A stretch of DNA of 36,456 bases from Armatimonadota bacterium (lineage in GTDB: Bacteria > Armatimonadota > Fimbriimonadia > Fimbriimonadales > GBS-DC), in assembly GCA_023511915.1 (NCBI GenBank), contig JAIMAN010000024.1, positions 1-36,456 on the forward strand, given 5' to 3'. A model generated the notes under the pieces. That model saw only the letters and a program-made list of their open reading frames with translations. It did no database searches and had not been told where the DNA came from. A program made the position numbers and the translations under genes. Shown here piece after piece: positions 27,313 to 34,227 of the stretch (its first letter is position 1; every line of letters starts with the position of its first letter).

Positions 27313-27342
27313 TTGACACAGAGAGATGAAATGTGGTATAAT
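27313..27342 (+). promoter_or_regulatory. Consensus sigma-70 promoter of the tubulin-like operon
   Basis: Perfect TTGACA (27313-27318) and TATAAT (27337-27342) with an 18-nt spacer and a TGTGG just before the -10. It is the only full consensus promoter in the window, implying strong housekeeping expression of the downstream operon. Predicted leader about 30-35 nt. Confidence 0.85.
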
Positions 27343-27382
27343 TAGCAGGCGATAGAGCGCTTTGCTCAAGGGGATGGTGTGC

Positions 27383-28606
27383 ATGGGACGCGGGAGGATA
27401 AGCAGCGTTGTTGCTGCACTGTTGATTGCGAAAGCGGGAGCCAGCCCGATCGAGGTTCTCGCGCCGAAGCCCGACGCGATTTACGGGTGGGGACGGCAAG
27501 CGCCGACGATTCGGTTGGAGGCGCGAGCGCGCCTTACGGAGCCTGCCGAGCGCGTGTTCATTACGGCAATCATCGCCAACGCGCGGGGCGAGCTGGTGCA
27601 GCGCGTCTCGCTACGCGACGATGGCAAATACGGCGACGCCGCCGCCAACGACCGCGTGTTCACAGGCGCGTTCACCCCCACAACGGCGGAGCTGCACCAG
27701 CTGCGCTTCAAGATGGAGTGGCAGCGCGAGGGCAAGCCCGCGCGCGCCTACAGCCCGTTCCAAGCGTTCGAGGTGGTTCGTGCGCCTTACGCGCGGTTCC
27801 TGAACAAACTCGACCAAGACGGCGCGTCCGTCGGCGCAACGACGCGACAGCCTGTGGCGCTGCTGATTGGCGACTCGGAAGCCCGCTACACAGGCGCATT
27901 AGACAACCTATCGCTACAGGCGCAAGCCGAGCCTGCTGCCACTGTTGAGCTGCCGAAAAGCCTCGCCCCGCAAAGCAGCATCCTCTACAAATTCCAGAAG
28001 CCCAGCAAATATACGCTCTATGTGAACGCCGTGCTGACCTATAAGGGGCAACGCATCGCCACAGAAGCAGATAGTATGACCGTGCAGTACGCGCGCCCCA
28101 ACAACGGATGGTTCATCGGAGGGGTATTCGCGCTGCTACTTGCCTTGCTGCTTCCAGGAAAGCGCATTCCCCTCTACACGCACGAAATGCAGGCGATAGA
28201 CCCCAAGCTCGGCACGCGCTACTCGGTGGAGGTGAGCAGCGAACAATCAGTGCGGATTGGTTCCCGAGATGCTGATTATCCACTGCCGAGCTACACAGGC
28301 GACGCCGTTGTGCTACAGGCGCGTGCGGGCGAGTCGCAGGTACGCCTGATGGAAGGCAGCCTCACACCCGCGTTGGGCTTCGGAGAATCCCTAAGCCCAG
28401 GCGATGCGCTCACGCCTGGCGAAAAGTACCGGTTGGGGAACGGTACCACACTGGAATACATCGAGGCTTACGAAAACGGCGCCCGACACACGAATCGCTT
28501 CTTACCGAACACGCCGCCGAAAGCGATTGCTCTCCTTGTCGGCATCGCTTTAGTGGCATACTATCTGTACCAGCATTACCAACTGCAGCAACTGGCGCAA
28601 CTGTGA
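27383..28606 (+). CDS. Two-pass membrane protein with Ig-like ectodomain and FHA-like domain, first gene of tubulin-like operon
   Basis: 407 residues from ATG 27383 (GGGG 9 nt upstream; earlier in-frame starts at 27362 and 27374 are possible). Residues 1-20 are a signal peptide. Residues 21-240 look extracytoplasmic and beta-rich, with DDGKYGDAAANDRVFTG (79-95), a string seen in Ig-like/choice-of-anchor-X regions of von Willebrand A proteins; no VWA MIDAS (DxSxS) is present. Helix 1 spans 243-258, then RIPLY. Residues about 280-365 (SVRIGSRDADYPLP ... LSPGDALTPGEKYRLGNGTTLEYI) have the strand and loop pattern of an FHA domain, though the phosphothreonine-binding residues are not clearly kept. 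Helix 2 spans 379-396. It may anchor the tubulin-like protein to the membrane. Confidence 0.7.
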   Translation: MGRGRISSVVAALLIAKAGASPIEVLAPKPDAIYGWGRQAPTIRLEARARLTEPAERVFITAIIANARGELVQRVSLRDDGKYGDAAANDRVFTGAFTPTTAELHQLRFKMEWQREGKPARAYSPFQAFEVVRAPYARFLNKLDQDGASVGATTRQPVALLIGDSEARYTGALDNLSLQAQAEPAATVELPKSLAPQSSILYKFQKPSKYTLYVNAVLTYKGQRIATEADSMTVQYARPNNGWFIGGVFALLLALLLPGKRIPLYTHEMQAIDPKLGTRYSVEVSSEQSVRIGSRDADYPLPSYTGDAVVLQARAGESQVRLMEGSLTPALGFGESLSPGDALTPGEKYRLGNGTTLEYIEAYENGARHTNRFLPNTPPKAIALLVGIALVAYYLYQHYQLQQLAQL

Positions 28607-28619
28607 AGGAGGCACACTC

Positions 28620-31600
28620 ATGCAGAGACCGATTGCAGTGGAGTATCACGAGCGCGGCGAGGTGCGCCCGACTTTGGTGGTCGGGCTGGGCGGCAGCGGC
28701 GTCTACACCGCGCGCCGACTGAAAAGGCTGATTCAGGAACGCTACAACACGGGCGGGCTTATACGGTTCCTCTGTTTGGACACGGATCAGGGGCAGTTCC
28801 AGCACGAGCCGCTGCTGGCGGATGTCGGACCCGACGAGTCCGTGCAGCTGGCGATTGCGCACCCCGAGCAGATTGTCGACGAGTGGCGGCGCAAGTCGGA
28901 ACTGCACCCCTACCTCGAGTTTTTGAACGGGGATGTGAATGTGGGCTTGCTGCGCAACGCGGACGGCGCAGCGGGTATTCGCCCGATCGGGCGTTTCGGC
29001 TTCCACGCCTCGTTTGACCGAATCTACCCGCGCCTGCAGCAAGCCGTGCAGCAGATTATGCAAGTGGAGGAGCAGGTGCGCGCGTTGATGGCGACCGTGC
29101 GCTACAGCGTGGAGGTGGTGAGCAGCCAGCCGCGCGTCTACATCATCGCGTCGTTGTGCGGGGGCACAGGGTCGGGCATCTATTTCGACACCGCGCTCGT
29201 GCTGCGGGAGATTTTGCTGCAGCAAAATCTGGACGGCGAGCTGGTGGGCATCTTCTACCTGCCGTCGGTGTTCCAGAACGAGGCAGGCATCACCCGCTCG
29301 ATGCGCGAGGTTATCGAGGCGAACGCCTACGCCGCGCTGATGGAGCTGGAATACTTCTGCAACAGCAACAACCTGCACCAGGAGGATTGGGAAGTCAAGT
29401 ACCGCATGATTCCGCCGATTGCGCTTAAGGAGCCGCTGGTGGACGAGGCGTATGTGGTGGAGAGCGCGAACGCGGCGGGGCGCACGCTCGGCTCCAAGTA
29501 CGAGGTGTTCGAGATGGTCGCGCGGAGCGTGCTGATGGACATCGGCTCGCCGCTGGGCGCGCGGGCGCGCAGCGCGAAACGCAACTCGCTGGCAGTGATC
29601 GACGCCATCCGATGCCCCGAAACGGGCGAGCCGCGCTTGCTGTCCAGCCTCGCGGTCGCCAGCCTCGCCGTGCCTATCCGCGAACTCACCGAATACTGCT
29701 GCCTGCGCGCCGCTTTAGACCGACTGGAGGAGAAGTTTTCAGGAAATCAGTCCCACGATTGGCGAGCGGAGGCGGAGAACTTCCTGCAGACCAACGGGCT
29801 GACTGCCGACTCTGTTCAAGCGGCTTTCTCGGAATTCATGCGCGTGGACAGAGTCTTTCGTGGGAGCGACAATCTAATAGCAGCCATCGACTCCGCCGAG
29901 CAACGGGCGCTGGAGCAGAGACAAAACATCGATGCACTTGCGCCGAGGGTGCGTGCCGACTTCCTGCAGCGGGCGCGCGCCGCACTTGCGGAGCGCTGTC
30001 GCACACTCCAAGAGCAGCACGGCATCGCAGGCGTGCAAGGCTTTCTGGAAGCCCTTGAGGAGCGAGTGAAAGCAGAAAGCAACAGCATCTTAAGCCAACT
30101 CAACGGGCAGAGCAGTCCTAATCCCTCTTGGGACGCGCTGCGCGAGAAAGCCAAGCGGAGCCCTAATCTCGTGCAACGCCTCGGTGGGTTCCTCGCGCAG
30201 CGCAATCCTGACGATCACCGTCGCCAGCAACTGGAAGATGAGGTCAAAAAACATCTGCGTCAAATGGCTAACAGTGCAGCTGTAGAGAAGACCAAGCAGA
30301 TACTCGACGCAGATGCCGATTCCATCAGGGCAGTTGTTCAGGAGATGCGCCGCCAGCAGGCTCACGAAACCCAGTCGACGAAGCAAATCGTAGAGGAGAT
30401 ACGCAAGCGCTTGAACGAGATAGAGCACGGGCAACCTGCAGGCACGACCTACCCACTGGAACAACTGGCGTGCCTCAAGCACCACTTCAGGCGTTTCTAC
30501 GAGATGCACAAGAGCGTGTTCACAGCCCCTATACAAGTCTTCGTGGCAGGCAGCACGCTTCATCTGGTGTTCCTGAATGGGCGCGGGAAGTCGCGGTCGT
30601 ATACGGTCGCCGACATGCGCGAGCTGCTCAACCGCCTGGTTGAGGGGATGGCTGAGCCTCTTGCAGAAACCATTCGCGACAAGGCGAATGTGATGGAGTT
30701 CCTCAAGCCCGTCTACGGCGAGCCCACGGCGGACGACTCGGACGACAGGGTCTATCTGGAGCGCAAGGTGGAGTACCTGCTGGAGGTGGCGAAGCCGTTT
30801 TGGAGCGCGGCGCAGCCGCCTGGCGATGCGCGCTTCGAGGAGTTTATTGCGGTGAGCGTGCCGTTGTCGCCTGAGGACTACCAGCGGGATGAGGAGGCGC
30901 GCCGCCTCGACGAAGCCGTCGAGCGGCTCACCCAGCGCGCGGGCGTAGCGTGCGAGCGCGTGCGGGACGGCTACCCCTTCGCACTGACGGTGCTGAACCG
31001 CACCTACGGCGCACGCGCCTACTACTTGCGAAGCATCGCGGGGATGGAGCATACTTACCGCAGGCGCGCCAGCAACCCGCAGGTGCGCGCTCACCTGCAC
31101 TTGGACGCGCGGTTCGCGCAGCTGCCGATGCTCACGCCGCCCGACCCCAACGCGAGCCGCCTGTGGGTGGCAGCGGTCAATATGGGCTATGTGGCGGAGA
31201 TCGACGGCAAGTTCTACTTTGGGATTGAGACACTGCAACGGCAGGATGTGCCGCGCCCCAAGTACCAGACTCAGCGCACGCCGCGACTGGCACTGCGCGA
31301 CGCTGCAGGCGACGACCTACTTCAGGGCAGCTACACCGTCGCCGAGCGCGAGGCGTTGCTGGGCGAGACCTACGACGCCGCACGACGCGCGTTCCTCAAC
31401 GACGCGCAACTGCAAGACGAAGTGCGGGACGCCCTGACGCGCGTGGCGCGGCATATCGGGCGCGAATCGCTCATCGATGCGCTGAAACAGCATGCTGACC
31501 GTCTGCTTGATGAAGCCAATCGGGCACAAGGCATCGTGGCGCAGCGATGGCGCGAGGAACGAGAGACGCTCTCATCGATGGCAGACACTCTGGAGGAGGA

Positions 31601-31640
31601 GATCTATGTTCTATCCTACGATGGTCGTCGCCGTTGGTGA
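28620..31640 (+). CDS. Tubulin/FtsZ-superfamily GTPase (Tubulin_2-like)
   Basis: 1006 residues. The N-terminal 375 residues carry the tubulin-superfamily nucleotide fold: PTLVVGLGGSGVYTARRLKR (loop GLGGSG, 22-27), FLCLDTDQGQF (LDTD 53-56), the tubulin signature CGGTGSGIYFD (GGTGSG, 181-186), REVIEANAYAALMELEYF (229-246, base-binding region) and VDEAYVVESAN. A long helical part follows (about 375-640, coiled-coil-rich), then a C-terminal domain unlike FtsZ. This is the large bacterial family (PF13809, 'Tubulin like') that Makarova and Koonin tied to membrane remodelling; biochemical function is not established. AAGGAGG overlaps the previous stop; 13 nt separate the two genes. Confidence 0.85.
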   Translation: MQRPIAVEYHERGEVRPTLVVGLGGSGVYTARRLKRLIQERYNTGGLIRFLCLDTDQGQFQHEPLLADVGPDESVQLAIAHPEQIVDEWRRKSELHPYLEFLNGDVNVGLLRNADGAAGIRPIGRFGFHASFDRIYPRLQQAVQQIMQVEEQVRALMATVRYSVEVVSSQPRVYIIASLCGGTGSGIYFDTALVLREILLQQNLDGELVGIFYLPSVFQNEAGITRSMREVIEANAYAALMELEYFCNSNNLHQEDWEVKYRMIPPIALKEPLVDEAYVVESANAAGRTLGSKYEVFEMVARSVLMDIGSPLGARARSAKRNSLAVIDAIRCPETGEPRLLSSLAVASLAVPIRELTEYCCLRAALDRLEEKFSGNQSHDWRAEAENFLQTNGLTADSVQAAFSEFMRVDRVFRGSDNLIAAIDSAEQRALEQRQNIDALAPRVRADFLQRARAALAERCRTLQEQHGIAGVQGFLEALEERVKAESNSILSQLNGQSSPNPSWDALREKAKRSPNLVQRLGGFLAQRNPDDHRRQQLEDEVKKHLRQMANSAAVEKTKQILDADADSIRAVVQEMRRQQAHETQSTKQIVEEIRKRLNEIEHGQPAGTTYPLEQLACLKHHFRRFYEMHKSVFTAPIQVFVAGSTLHLVFLNGRGKSRSYTVADMRELLNRLVEGMAEPLAETIRDKANVMEFLKPVYGEPTADDSDDRVYLERKVEYLLEVAKPFWSAAQPPGDARFEEFIAVSVPLSPEDYQRDEEARRLDEAVERLTQRAGVACERVRDGYPFALTVLNRTYGARAYYLRSIAGMEHTYRRRASNPQVRAHLHLDARFAQLPMLTPPDPNASRLWVAAVNMGYVAEIDGKFYFGIETLQRQDVPRPKYQTQRTPRLALRDAAGDDLLQGSYTVAEREALLGETYDAARRAFLNDAQLQDEVRDALTRVARHIGRESLIDALKQHADRLLDEANRAQGIVAQRWREERETLSSMADTLEEEIYVLSYDGRRRW

Positions 31641-33561
31641 TTTGGCGCATCGGGCGGTGGACGAGGCGCACGCGCTGCTGCAGGCGTTCCGCTCGCCCGC
31701 GCTGCACATCACCGCGCTGCTTGCTTACCGCGAGGGCGTCTACCACGAGATTAGCGCGCCCAGTCTCGGCGACGCGGGCGCGTTCGAGTCACCGCTGGCG
31801 CGGTGTCTGTACGCAACGCGCCTCGAGCAGAACATCCACCGCGCGCGCAACGACGGGATGGCGGTCGGTCCGCCAGGGGGCTACTTGCTGGAACAGGTTC
31901 TGCTGGTGGTGGACAGCGACGCCTATGCGGACGCTCTGCAGGTGGTTCAGGCGATTGCAGCGTTGTGTGAGCGCGCGGACGATTTGGTGCCCGCGCGGCT
32001 GCACTGGCTGGTGCTGCACCCCTCTTACGACGCGCCGTTGCCGAGTGCGCTCTGGCAAGACCACTTGGCGCGGCAGCATACGCCGTCTGCCCTGCAAGAG
32101 GGCAAGATGTACCTGCTACGCCTTGTGCGTTCCGACGGCTCGGCGATGACGCCTGACCAACTGCGCGAGACGACAGCGTACCTGCTGCTGATGGCGTTGC
32201 ATCCTGCCGAGTTCGTCGGCGAACACTGGCTCTACCGCAGCTTGGTCAACGCCGACCGTGCGCCCAGCACGCTGGGGTGCGGGCTGGTGGTGCTGCCGCT
32301 GCACAAAGTCATCCAGTGCCTGCAAGACAAGCTGGTCGCTGAGGCGTTGACGACGCTGCTGAGCGGTTCGGGGGGCGCGGTCGGGTTGCCGCAGCCCGAC
32401 GAAGCGCACTTGTGGGGGCACATCGTGGGGCAAGCGGCGCAGGCGTGGGGTGAGGCGGTGCGCCTGCAGCCCCAAGACGCGCTCGGCTTGACCGCGACCA
32501 TTCCTACGCCCGCGCTCAATCCGCGCGGGTTGAGCGCCGCCAGCCTCACAGCCGTCGATGACTGGGAGCGCGAATGGCACGAGCAGAAGCTACCCCGCTG
32601 GCGCAGGCTGCTCCACGACGCCGCGCAACGCGCCGCCGACGCCTATCGCGAGAGCCTGCACGCTGGCGTCCAACAGCACCTGCGCACGCCCGACGCGAAC
32701 CTGACTGCCCTCAAAGCGCGGCTGGAAACGCTTGCGAGCGCCGTCAGCAGCTGGCAAATCCATACGCTGACGCCCACGCGCCCCTCCGCCGAGCGCAAAA
32801 CCGCCCTACGCACGCGGCTCGAAAAGTCCCTCGCGGAGGCGGAACGGTTCAAAGGAAGCTTGTTCCGCCGTCGCCCCGCGCCCGACGCCGAGACCGTGAA
32901 CGCCTACGCCCAAGCGCTGCACGACTACTACGCCCAGAGCCTGCGCGCGGACGCGCACGAGGCGTTCAACAGCCTCGCCCAGCAGATTCGGGACGCTATC
33001 CAGCAGCAGTTGCATAGCGTGCGCGCCGCCCTCGAGCGCATCCAATCTGAGGCGCGCGAGCGCGAGAACCGCGCACGCGCCTTCCACCTGCCGCCCCTGC
33101 CGTGGCTGCGACCGCTGGTCTCCCGCTGGGAACACCTCGAACCCACTGCACAGGCGCTGTGGGGCACGCGCGACTTAGCGACGCTCGTCAGGCAACTGAT
33201 AGACCCCAAACGCGACCTGCGCGAGCAACTCCCGTGGATCACCCAGCAGTTAGAGCAGTATCTACAGCGTTGGATGACCGACTACTTTCGGCGGTTCTCG
33301 TACTATCTGCGCGAACGGTATCCGAATTTGCAATCGCGTATCACACACTGCGAGCAGCATCTGACGGCGATGCGGGAGCAAGCGCCGCGCGTGTTGTGGC
33401 GCGCTGAGAAGCCGACGCCGCAGGTCTGGCAAGTCGCGCCGCCCGAAGAGCGCAGCAGCCTGCCCCACCCCGCCGACGCGCCCATTCGCGACTGGCTCAC
33501 CGACACGGGGCTGGGCTACATCGCGGTTGTTGGGGAAGTTGCACTGGGGGATGTCTCGTGA
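31606..33561 (+). CDS. Partner of tubulin-like GTPase; possible GTPase-dead paralogue
   Basis: 651 residues from ATG 31606 (GGAGGAGGA 5 nt upstream), overlapping the tubulin-like gene by 35 nt. I know no named family for it. Its N-terminus MFYPTMVVAVGDLAHRAVDE parallels PTLVVGLGGSG of the upstream protein with the glycine loop lost; QVLLVVDSDAYADALQVVQ (97-115) falls where the GGTGSG loop would be; TLGCGLVVLP (222-231) and LSG (252-254) match SLAVASLAVP (343-352) and FSG (373-375) at identical spacing. The remainder is helical with several coiled-coil-like stretches. Overall similarity is weak, so common origin is an inference. Probably made in fixed ratio with the GTPase. Confidence 0.6.
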   Translation: MFYPTMVVAVGDLAHRAVDEAHALLQAFRSPALHITALLAYREGVYHEISAPSLGDAGAFESPLARCLYATRLEQNIHRARNDGMAVGPPGGYLLEQVLLVVDSDAYADALQVVQAIAALCERADDLVPARLHWLVLHPSYDAPLPSALWQDHLARQHTPSALQEGKMYLLRLVRSDGSAMTPDQLRETTAYLLLMALHPAEFVGEHWLYRSLVNADRAPSTLGCGLVVLPLHKVIQCLQDKLVAEALTTLLSGSGGAVGLPQPDEAHLWGHIVGQAAQAWGEAVRLQPQDALGLTATIPTPALNPRGLSAASLTAVDDWEREWHEQKLPRWRRLLHDAAQRAADAYRESLHAGVQQHLRTPDANLTALKARLETLASAVSSWQIHTLTPTRPSAERKTALRTRLEKSLAEAERFKGSLFRRRPAPDAETVNAYAQALHDYYAQSLRADAHEAFNSLAQQIRDAIQQQLHSVRAALERIQSEARERENRARAFHLPPLPWLRPLVSRWEHLEPTAQALWGTRDLATLVRQLIDPKRDLREQLPWITQQLEQYLQRWMTDYFRRFSYYLRERYPNLQSRITHCEQHLTAMREQAPRVLWRAEKPTPQVWQVAPPEERSSLPHPADAPIRDWLTDTGLGYIAVVGEVALGDVS

Positions 33562-33591: not shown

Positions 33592-34227
33592 ATGCAGGAG
33601 CCGATTATTCGGATTACCGAGCGTCCCAAGCCGCCGCAGCCCGAAGAGCTGAACCTGCGCTTCTCGGAGCGCGCCGTTCTGGAACTGGAAGCGCTGCTGA
33701 CGCACTACCCCGACAAGAAGTCGGCGATGCTCCCCGCGTTGTGGATTGCCCAACGCGAGTACGGCGGGCATCTGACCTCGGACGCCATCGCCGAGGTTGC
33801 CTACCGTCTGGGGCGTTCCTACGCCGAAGTGGAGGGCGTCGCCACCTTCTACACGATGTATAACAAAACGCCCGTCGGCAAGTATATGCTGGAGGTCTGC
33901 ACGAACCTGAGCTGCATGCTGTGCGGCGGGTATCGGATTCTGGAGTACCTGCAGGAGAAACTCGGCATCCGCTTGGGCGAGACGACGCCCGACGGGCTGT
34001 TCACGCTGACGGAGGTGGAGTGCCTCAACAACTGCGGCGACGCGCCCGTGATGCAGGTCGGCGACATCTACTGCCGACGGCTGACCCCAGAGAAGATCGA
34101 CGCGCTGCTGGAGGAGCTGCGCCAAAGCGAGGCGCACACCGTCGTCGCGCTGGCGGACGCCGAAGTGCAGCTGCACCTCAGCGCACAGGAGCGTGAGCAA
34201 ATCGAGCGTGCGCTCACCCAATCGTAG
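33592..34227 (+). CDS. nuoE: NADH-quinone oxidoreductase subunit E (24 kDa-type [2Fe-2S] protein)
   Basis: Thioredoxin-fold subunit carrying the N1a-type [2Fe-2S] cluster of complex I or a related NAD-linked dehydrogenase/hydrogenase. 211 residues. Ligands: Cys103 and Cys108 (CTNLSC) and Cys144 and Cys148 (CLNNC), the canonical C-x4-C and C-x3-C spacing, followed by GDAPVMQVGD. SAMLPALWIAQREYGG and VEGVATFYTMYNKTPVGKY are typical. The C-terminus has about 35 extra helical residues. No nuoF or other nuo gene follows, so it is detached from the usual cluster. Confidence 0.92.
   Translation: MQEPIIRITERPKPPQPEELNLRFSERAVLELEALLTHYPDKKSAMLPALWIAQREYGGHLTSDAIAEVAYRLGRSYAEVEGVATFYTMYNKTPVGKYMLEVCTNLSCMLCGGYRILEYLQEKLGIRLGETTPDGLFTLTEVECLNNCGDAPVMQVGDIYCRRLTPEKIDALLEELRQSEAHTVVALADAEVQLHLSAQEREQIERALTQS

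Follow-up and report, generated by a model that had tools for sequence, protein, structure and literature searches.

A conserved three-gene operon with an FtsZl1-type tubulin relative, a membrane anchor and a putative loop-less paralogue in Armatimonadota

Layout of the operon

The window, that is, the whole stretch of 36,456 nucleotides that was analysed, belongs to a 2.73-Mb genome assembly whose named relatives are Armatimonadota, i.e., Fimbriimonadales and HRbin16-type MAGs; the organism is a hot-spring bacterium. On the forward strand, a promoter is followed in order by genes A (407 residues from its ATG, with an alternative TTG start possible at 27362), B (1006 residues) and C (651 residues counted from a conserved ATG), as listed in Table 1. 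An earlier sequence-only reading had described a full TTGACA/TATAAT promoter and three genes, the last two overlapping by 35 nt, and both descriptions were borne out. Over 8 kb the promoter scan returned 4 promoter-like sites where 1.1 were expected, the one ahead of A being the sole perfect site, and the same element recurs ahead of the orthologous operon in three related genomes, with weaker forms in two more loci (L067 and L069). Together the three genes make up a conserved, strongly promoted operon.

The genes flanking the operon are housekeeping genes. A NuoE-like gene (33592-34227) begins 30 bp past C with a TATAAT-like box just upstream, and among the compared genomes such a gene lies behind C only in the window and in G010. 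The empty-site test through the downstream nuoE gave no empty site: among the congeners examined the order frd-ABC-nuoE is kept in G010 only, and the others have nuoE without adjoining frd genes.

Table 1. Features of the operon in the window, with the basis of each assignment (TM, transmembrane; f19, second family with A-B-C)
Feature	Position	Strand	Basis
Sigma-70 consensus promoter TTGACA-N18-TATAAT, TG before -10	27313..27342	+	12/12 match; perfect in orthologous L062, L063, L066
Gene A, 407 aa: signal sequence, choice-of-anchor X domain, TM, cytoplasmic FHA-like domain (candidate), C-terminal TM	27383..28606	+	NF041940 E 1.1e-9; homologous to VWA partner
Choice-of-anchor X domain of A, residues 75-109	27605..27709	+	NCBIfam NF041940, 37.8 bits vs cut-off 25
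First TM helix of A, about residues 241-263	28103..28171	+	Hydropathy; conserved hydrophobic block
Cytoplasmic beta-rich candidate FHA-like domain of A, about residues 265-375	28175..28507	+	Sequence pattern; sub-threshold FHA match in VWA homologue L074
C-terminal TM helix of A, about residues 381-401	28523..28585	+	Hydrophobic stretch conserved in A alignment; under hydropathy cut-off used
Ribosome-binding site AGGAGG of gene B, right behind A stop codon	28607..28612	+	Sequence
Gene B, 1006 aa, FtsZl1/Tubulin_2 protein	28620..31640	+	PF13809 E 1e-51; AF2 model, VIA Z 19.4 to tubulin
T1 loop GLGGSG of B, residues 22-27	28683..28700	+	Alignment conservation
Motif LDTD of B, residues 53-56	28776..28787	+	DTD invariant in alignment
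T4 signature GGTGSG of B, residues 181-186	29160..29177	+	Alignment conservation; GGTGSS in L019/L070
Long helical/coiled-coil segment of B, about residues 419-603, apparently between halves of tubulin fold	29874..30428	+	AF2 secondary structure; tubulin matches span model residues 15-840
B/C overlap, 35-nt	31606..31640	+	Sequence; recurs in L062, L063, L064, L065
Gene C, 651 aa, putative divergent nucleotide-loop-less tubulin-like paralogue, two long coiled coils	31606..33561	+	Profile-profile links; AF2 with tubulins as four top VIA rows
C site equivalent to T1, GDLAHR for GxGGSG, residues 11-16	31636..31653	+	Alignments
C site probably equivalent to T4, DSDAYA for GGTGSG, residues 103-108	31912..31929	+	Alignment and AF2 strand-loop-helix order
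C site, about residues 414-419, matching two-TM hairpin (~50 residues) of f19 homologues	32845..32863	+	Alignment

The tubulin relative B and the anchor A

FtsZl1 proteins, whose systems are predicted to be cytoskeleton-like, are present in many bacterial lineages, and our searches of the literature and the PDB found no experimental function or structure of them. Judged by profile match and structural model, B is a bona fide member of this group: it reaches 176.8 bits against a curated cut-off of 27 in Pfam PF13809 over residues 19-366, in agreement with the tubulin-superfamily assignment made earlier from the sequence. The motifs GLGGSG, LDTD and GGTGSG that had been picked out in the 1006-residue protein were all located and are conserved among aligned relatives, GLGGSG and GGTGSG being the intact T1 and T4 nucleotide loops; a diverged B paralogue (L019/L070) carries GMGGSG, VDTD and GGTGSS in their place. 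The sequence-only reading had named a missing tubulin fold in the second protein as a point on which it could fail, and the AF2 model, built from 10 sequences and of moderate confidence (pLDDT 68), supports the fold. Tubulins, FtsZ and CetZ recur throughout its Foldseek list, and VIA aligned 297 residues to tubulin with Z up to 19.4 and rmsd 3.9 (model 15-840 against tubulin 1-417). Sequence matches of B in the PDB were chance helical ones only and were rejected. An ordinary FtsZ is also encoded in the host genome, separately from B.

Since the helical segment falls within the range spanned by the tubulin matches, its coiled coils can be read as inserted into a complete tubulin fold, and the simplest reading of these ranges is that B would be a two-domain tubulin interrupted by coiled coils. 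This model bears on the remark of Makarova and Koonin (2010, PMC2875224) that T6-H7 and the C-terminal domain had escaped recognition.

For A, an Ig/FHA-like membrane anchor had been proposed from the sequence; A is indeed a membrane anchor, with a beta-rich domain on the extracytoplasmic side, and NF041940 is matched by all seven homologues of A. The cytoplasmic domain matched no FHA model and nothing in the PDB; at the C-terminus of a VWA homologue, L074, an FHA match stays below the threshold (E 0.014). VWA partners of B elsewhere carry NF041940 as well, namely L099 and L074, the latter with two copies (E 4.7e-23) beside its VWA domain (E 6.8e-18). In hhalign, A and L074 align at 96.7% (E 3.6e-10) over 232 columns, from the choice-of-anchor X domain through the membrane helix, and VWA-less anchors also stand upstream of B in L085 and L104. 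A is thus best read as a VWA partner that lacks the VWA domain, and we infer a loss rather than a gain because the form with VWA is the one usually met in the literature. The earlier claim that the known partners are absent and replaced therefore holds in one half. No VWA domain was matched in A, B or C (Pfam), and neither a GTPase distinct from B nor an OmpA-family protein was found among them (Pfam, NCBIfam). Replacement is the half that did not stand, as A appears to be related to the VWA partner itself and to differ in having no VWA domain.

Protein C and its relation to the c7 family

The sequence-only reading had taken C for a novel protein. By direct sequence search C indeed matches no family in Pfam, NCBIfam, PADLOC or the PDB, tubulin family models included, and a plasmid search with C gave zero matches. 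Profile comparison nevertheless changes that view and suggests that C is a divergent B-like tubulin paralogue in which both nucleotide loops are missing, akin to c7, a family of 770-920 residues encoded behind B in five further Armatimonadota genomes. The layout of c7 is that of C, with an N-terminal beta-G-x-G-alpha unit, coiled coils around two TM helices and a C-terminal part, and three of its five members match PF13809 directly (best 2e-5). In hhalign, the C family aligned with c7 at 94.1% with nine C sequences and at 97.6% with twelve (E 2.8e-12, 495 colinear columns). Against a 48-sequence set of B proteins, c7 reached 99.5% (E 5.6e-23) and C 96.8% (E 3e-10), and the controls, made up of reversed profiles and four unrelated families that included coiled-coil and VWA ones, all stayed at or below 0.4%. 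C alone against the B profile of the window family gave a weak 19.2%, so that C and B are linked by way of intermediate families and of profiles that are broader. The direct C-B comparison within the narrow family, matching the coiled coil only, was set aside.

Could C be unrelated to tubulin, an alpha/beta plus coiled-coil adaptor whose likeness to B merely reflects coiled-coil bias? We consider this quite improbable. The lack of a Pfam family for C, the weak direct comparison with B and a Foldseek search with the C model that returned no significant match would all fit such an adaptor. Against it, the alignment with c7 is colinear from the N-terminal beta-loop-alpha unit through the coiled coils, the coiled-coil, VWA and reversed controls gave next to nothing, and c7 itself matches PF13809. 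C and c7 also have their position and a downstream gene in common: the C of f28 (L130) is followed by c12, a transglutaminase-like membrane gene that also follows c7 (E 1.3e-38). Finally, tubulins head the VIA list for the C model (pLDDT 73.6), the four best rows all being tubulins, with Z of 9.2, 8.3, 7.9 and 7.8, barely above the usual background. Pore-forming toxins among the Foldseek rows were rejected as long-helix matches with rmsd near 40.

Canonical T1 and T4 loops were found in none of the twelve C and none of the five c7 sequences. Because both are absent from all twelve C proteins, we file C as a tubulin-derived homologue and not as a tubulin GTPase. A two-TM hairpin is present in the C proteins of the second family with the trio (f19) and absent from those of the window family (f1). 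One further C gene (L017:4669-6621, the same as L065) has an in-frame stop near residue 92, either a sequencing error or the mark of a pseudogene. As far as our searches show, a second tubulin-like component has no earlier description in this lineage.

Distribution, related systems and possible role

The sequence-only reading had proposed a neighbourhood survey, with the adjacency of the three genes in relatives as a point at issue; at least eight more genomes, from two Armatimonadota families, have A-B-C in this order, so the arrangement is not due to chance. In f1 the three genes stand in order in G016, G010, G011 and G017, and run in pieces to contig ends in G002 and G006; in f19 they are found in L067/L083, L088, L103 and L132. 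C occurs in 7 of 61 genomes, all seven of which have B. The trio is missing from several congeners that are more than 90% complete and is thus patchy within the genus. A second locus of G017 has A and B without C. In the B tree, the proteins of f1, f19 and f17 fall together with support 1.0, inside a wider clade (0.78) that holds the c7 loci. The A-B locus without C (L019:6395-10751, the same as L070), a diverged second locus in the same genome as L018, is followed by two related PEP-CTERM-like genes; with A and B present there, C is not strictly required. The split A, B and C frames of G161 (L133) were set aside, as a flanking gene is split too, which suggests assembly errors.

Like the FtsZl1/Tubulin_2 systems (PMC2875224), the window has a membrane-linked operon and a B with a tubulin-like N-terminal domain, intact loops, a coiled coil and a helical C-terminal part; unlike them, it has no VWA, TRAFAC-type GTPase, kinase or OmpA genes, but a VWA-less anchor and C, the putative loop-less tubulin paralogue. 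The GAP1-N2 neighbourhoods of Kaur et al. (2020, PMC7159879), in which VWA proteins accompany tubulin genes (two in Firmicutes), resemble it in their coiled-coil tubulin-domain proteins, in having sometimes two tubulin genes, and in their VWA and membrane proteins. They differ in that no GAP1 or TRAFAC GTPase was matched in the three operon genes (Pfam, E<=1) and in that the second candidate tubulin relative here lacks the nucleotide loops. The Armatimonadota VWA-B-c7-c12 loci (L099, L108 and L094) have an upstream VWA membrane partner, B and a tubulin-like second protein in the same order, B proteins that cluster with the window B, and choice-of-anchor X in the VWA partner of L099; the window differs by having no VWA in A, no TM hairpin in C and no c12. 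Some of the unnamed families B1-B9 of PMC2875224 may already correspond to c7 and c12. With BtubA/BtubB and alpha/beta-tubulin the operon shares the idea of two cooperating tubulin relatives; it differs in the loop-less C and in the long coiled coils of B and C, and heteropolymerisation here is only putative.

Two related loci bear on the role. In G162, the site of A-B-C holds a c3-B'-ZorA-like-ZorB-like set, and a 50-residue C-terminal remnant of C is left between conserved flanks, the immediate flanking genes being 68-92% identical to those of G159; the shared site, the flanks and the surviving end of C point to an in-situ replacement of one system by the other. The Zor-like label of these genes rests on homologous genes of L024 and L081. 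In G112 (f17, L086:880-11009), A and B are separated by a same-strand gene for a 1682-residue NACHT/AAA_16-TPR STAND-type NTPase. The replacement and the NTPase make a stress or conflict role plausible beside membrane remodelling.

We hold it to be fairly probable, from sequence and models, that the operon is a pared-down FtsZl1-type system whose two tubulin relatives sit at the inner membrane, with B binding GTP, C being a GTPase-dead co-subunit and A acting as tether. B would bind GTP through its T1 and T4 loops and assemble through its tubulin fold with the long coiled coils projecting. Translation of C would start inside the end of B, and C most likely co-assembles with B through matching coiled coils, as a cap, nucleator or spacer subunit. 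The anchor A, which shares its origin with the canonical VWA-containing partner, is predicted to place an exported beta-sandwich outside the inner membrane, followed by a TM helix, the cytoplasmic FHA-like domain and a second TM helix, and the FHA-like domain would contact B or C. The operon is probably an optional envelope-associated scaffold for a membrane or a stress/conflict response, and not part of core cell division.

The filament and the membrane remodelling put forward by the sequence-only reading are inferences, and the comparative data leave as much room for a role in stress or conflict. Kaur et al. (PMC7159879) proposed GTPase/tubulin-centred systems as biological-conflict devices, and an A-anchored tubulin assembly that responds to invasion or envelope damage, as a stress or anti-phage device, is in our view a possible if tentative account. 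Their GAP1-N2 tubulin neighbourhoods, the NTPase between A and B in f17, the swap in G162 and the patchiness within the genus all speak for it. The window operon, however, has no toxin, nuclease or other effector, its flanks are housekeeping genes, and its consensus promoter suggests constitutive expression. In PADLOC, moreover, A, B and C match no defence protein model meaningfully (weak coiled-coil matches only), and the weak matches of the MotA/MotB-like genes to Zorya models could be generic. For FtsZl1, Makarova and Koonin proposed an assembly that bends or organises the inner membrane, serving its remodelling or the biogenesis of vesicles. This view draws on the membership of B in FtsZl1 and on membrane-linked partners, such as the TM helices of A and the TM hairpin of f19 C. 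We regard it as slightly less likely here than the conflict account; the 2010 argument is one of gene context only (PMC2875224), and VWA, GTPase and OmpA are missing from the window operon.

A bolder version of the reduced-system reading would make B and C an obligate asymmetric pair, one GTP-binding and one nucleotide-free, co-translated, held at the membrane by an anchor without VWA, arisen separately from BtubA/BtubB and from alpha/beta-tubulin, and serving as an exchangeable envelope stress/defence device; as a whole this is unlikely, and we offer it as speculation. Should the loop-less C co-assemble with B, it would represent another route to asymmetric tubulin assemblies. The reduction of an FtsZl1 system to three genes makes the operon a tractable target for expression, structure determination and localisation.

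Some further loci deserve mention. FtsZl1 tubulins are paired with MotA/TolQ-like and OmpA/MotB-like genes, with weak ZorA/ZorB matches, in the Armatimonadota loci L024:2771-8342, L081:8770-14478 and L089:8321-12973, and such genes may account for the OmpA partners noted in the 2010 paper. L084:8382-14278 and L103:4264-10694 represent one chromosomal site with different FtsZl1 systems, a C remnant lying beside a MotA/OmpA (ZorAB-like) set in L084. Behind B, a membrane protein that from its sequence is of the trypsin-like serine protease type (cluster c5) is found in L087:5740-6501, L096:11518-12423, L093, L106 and L109.
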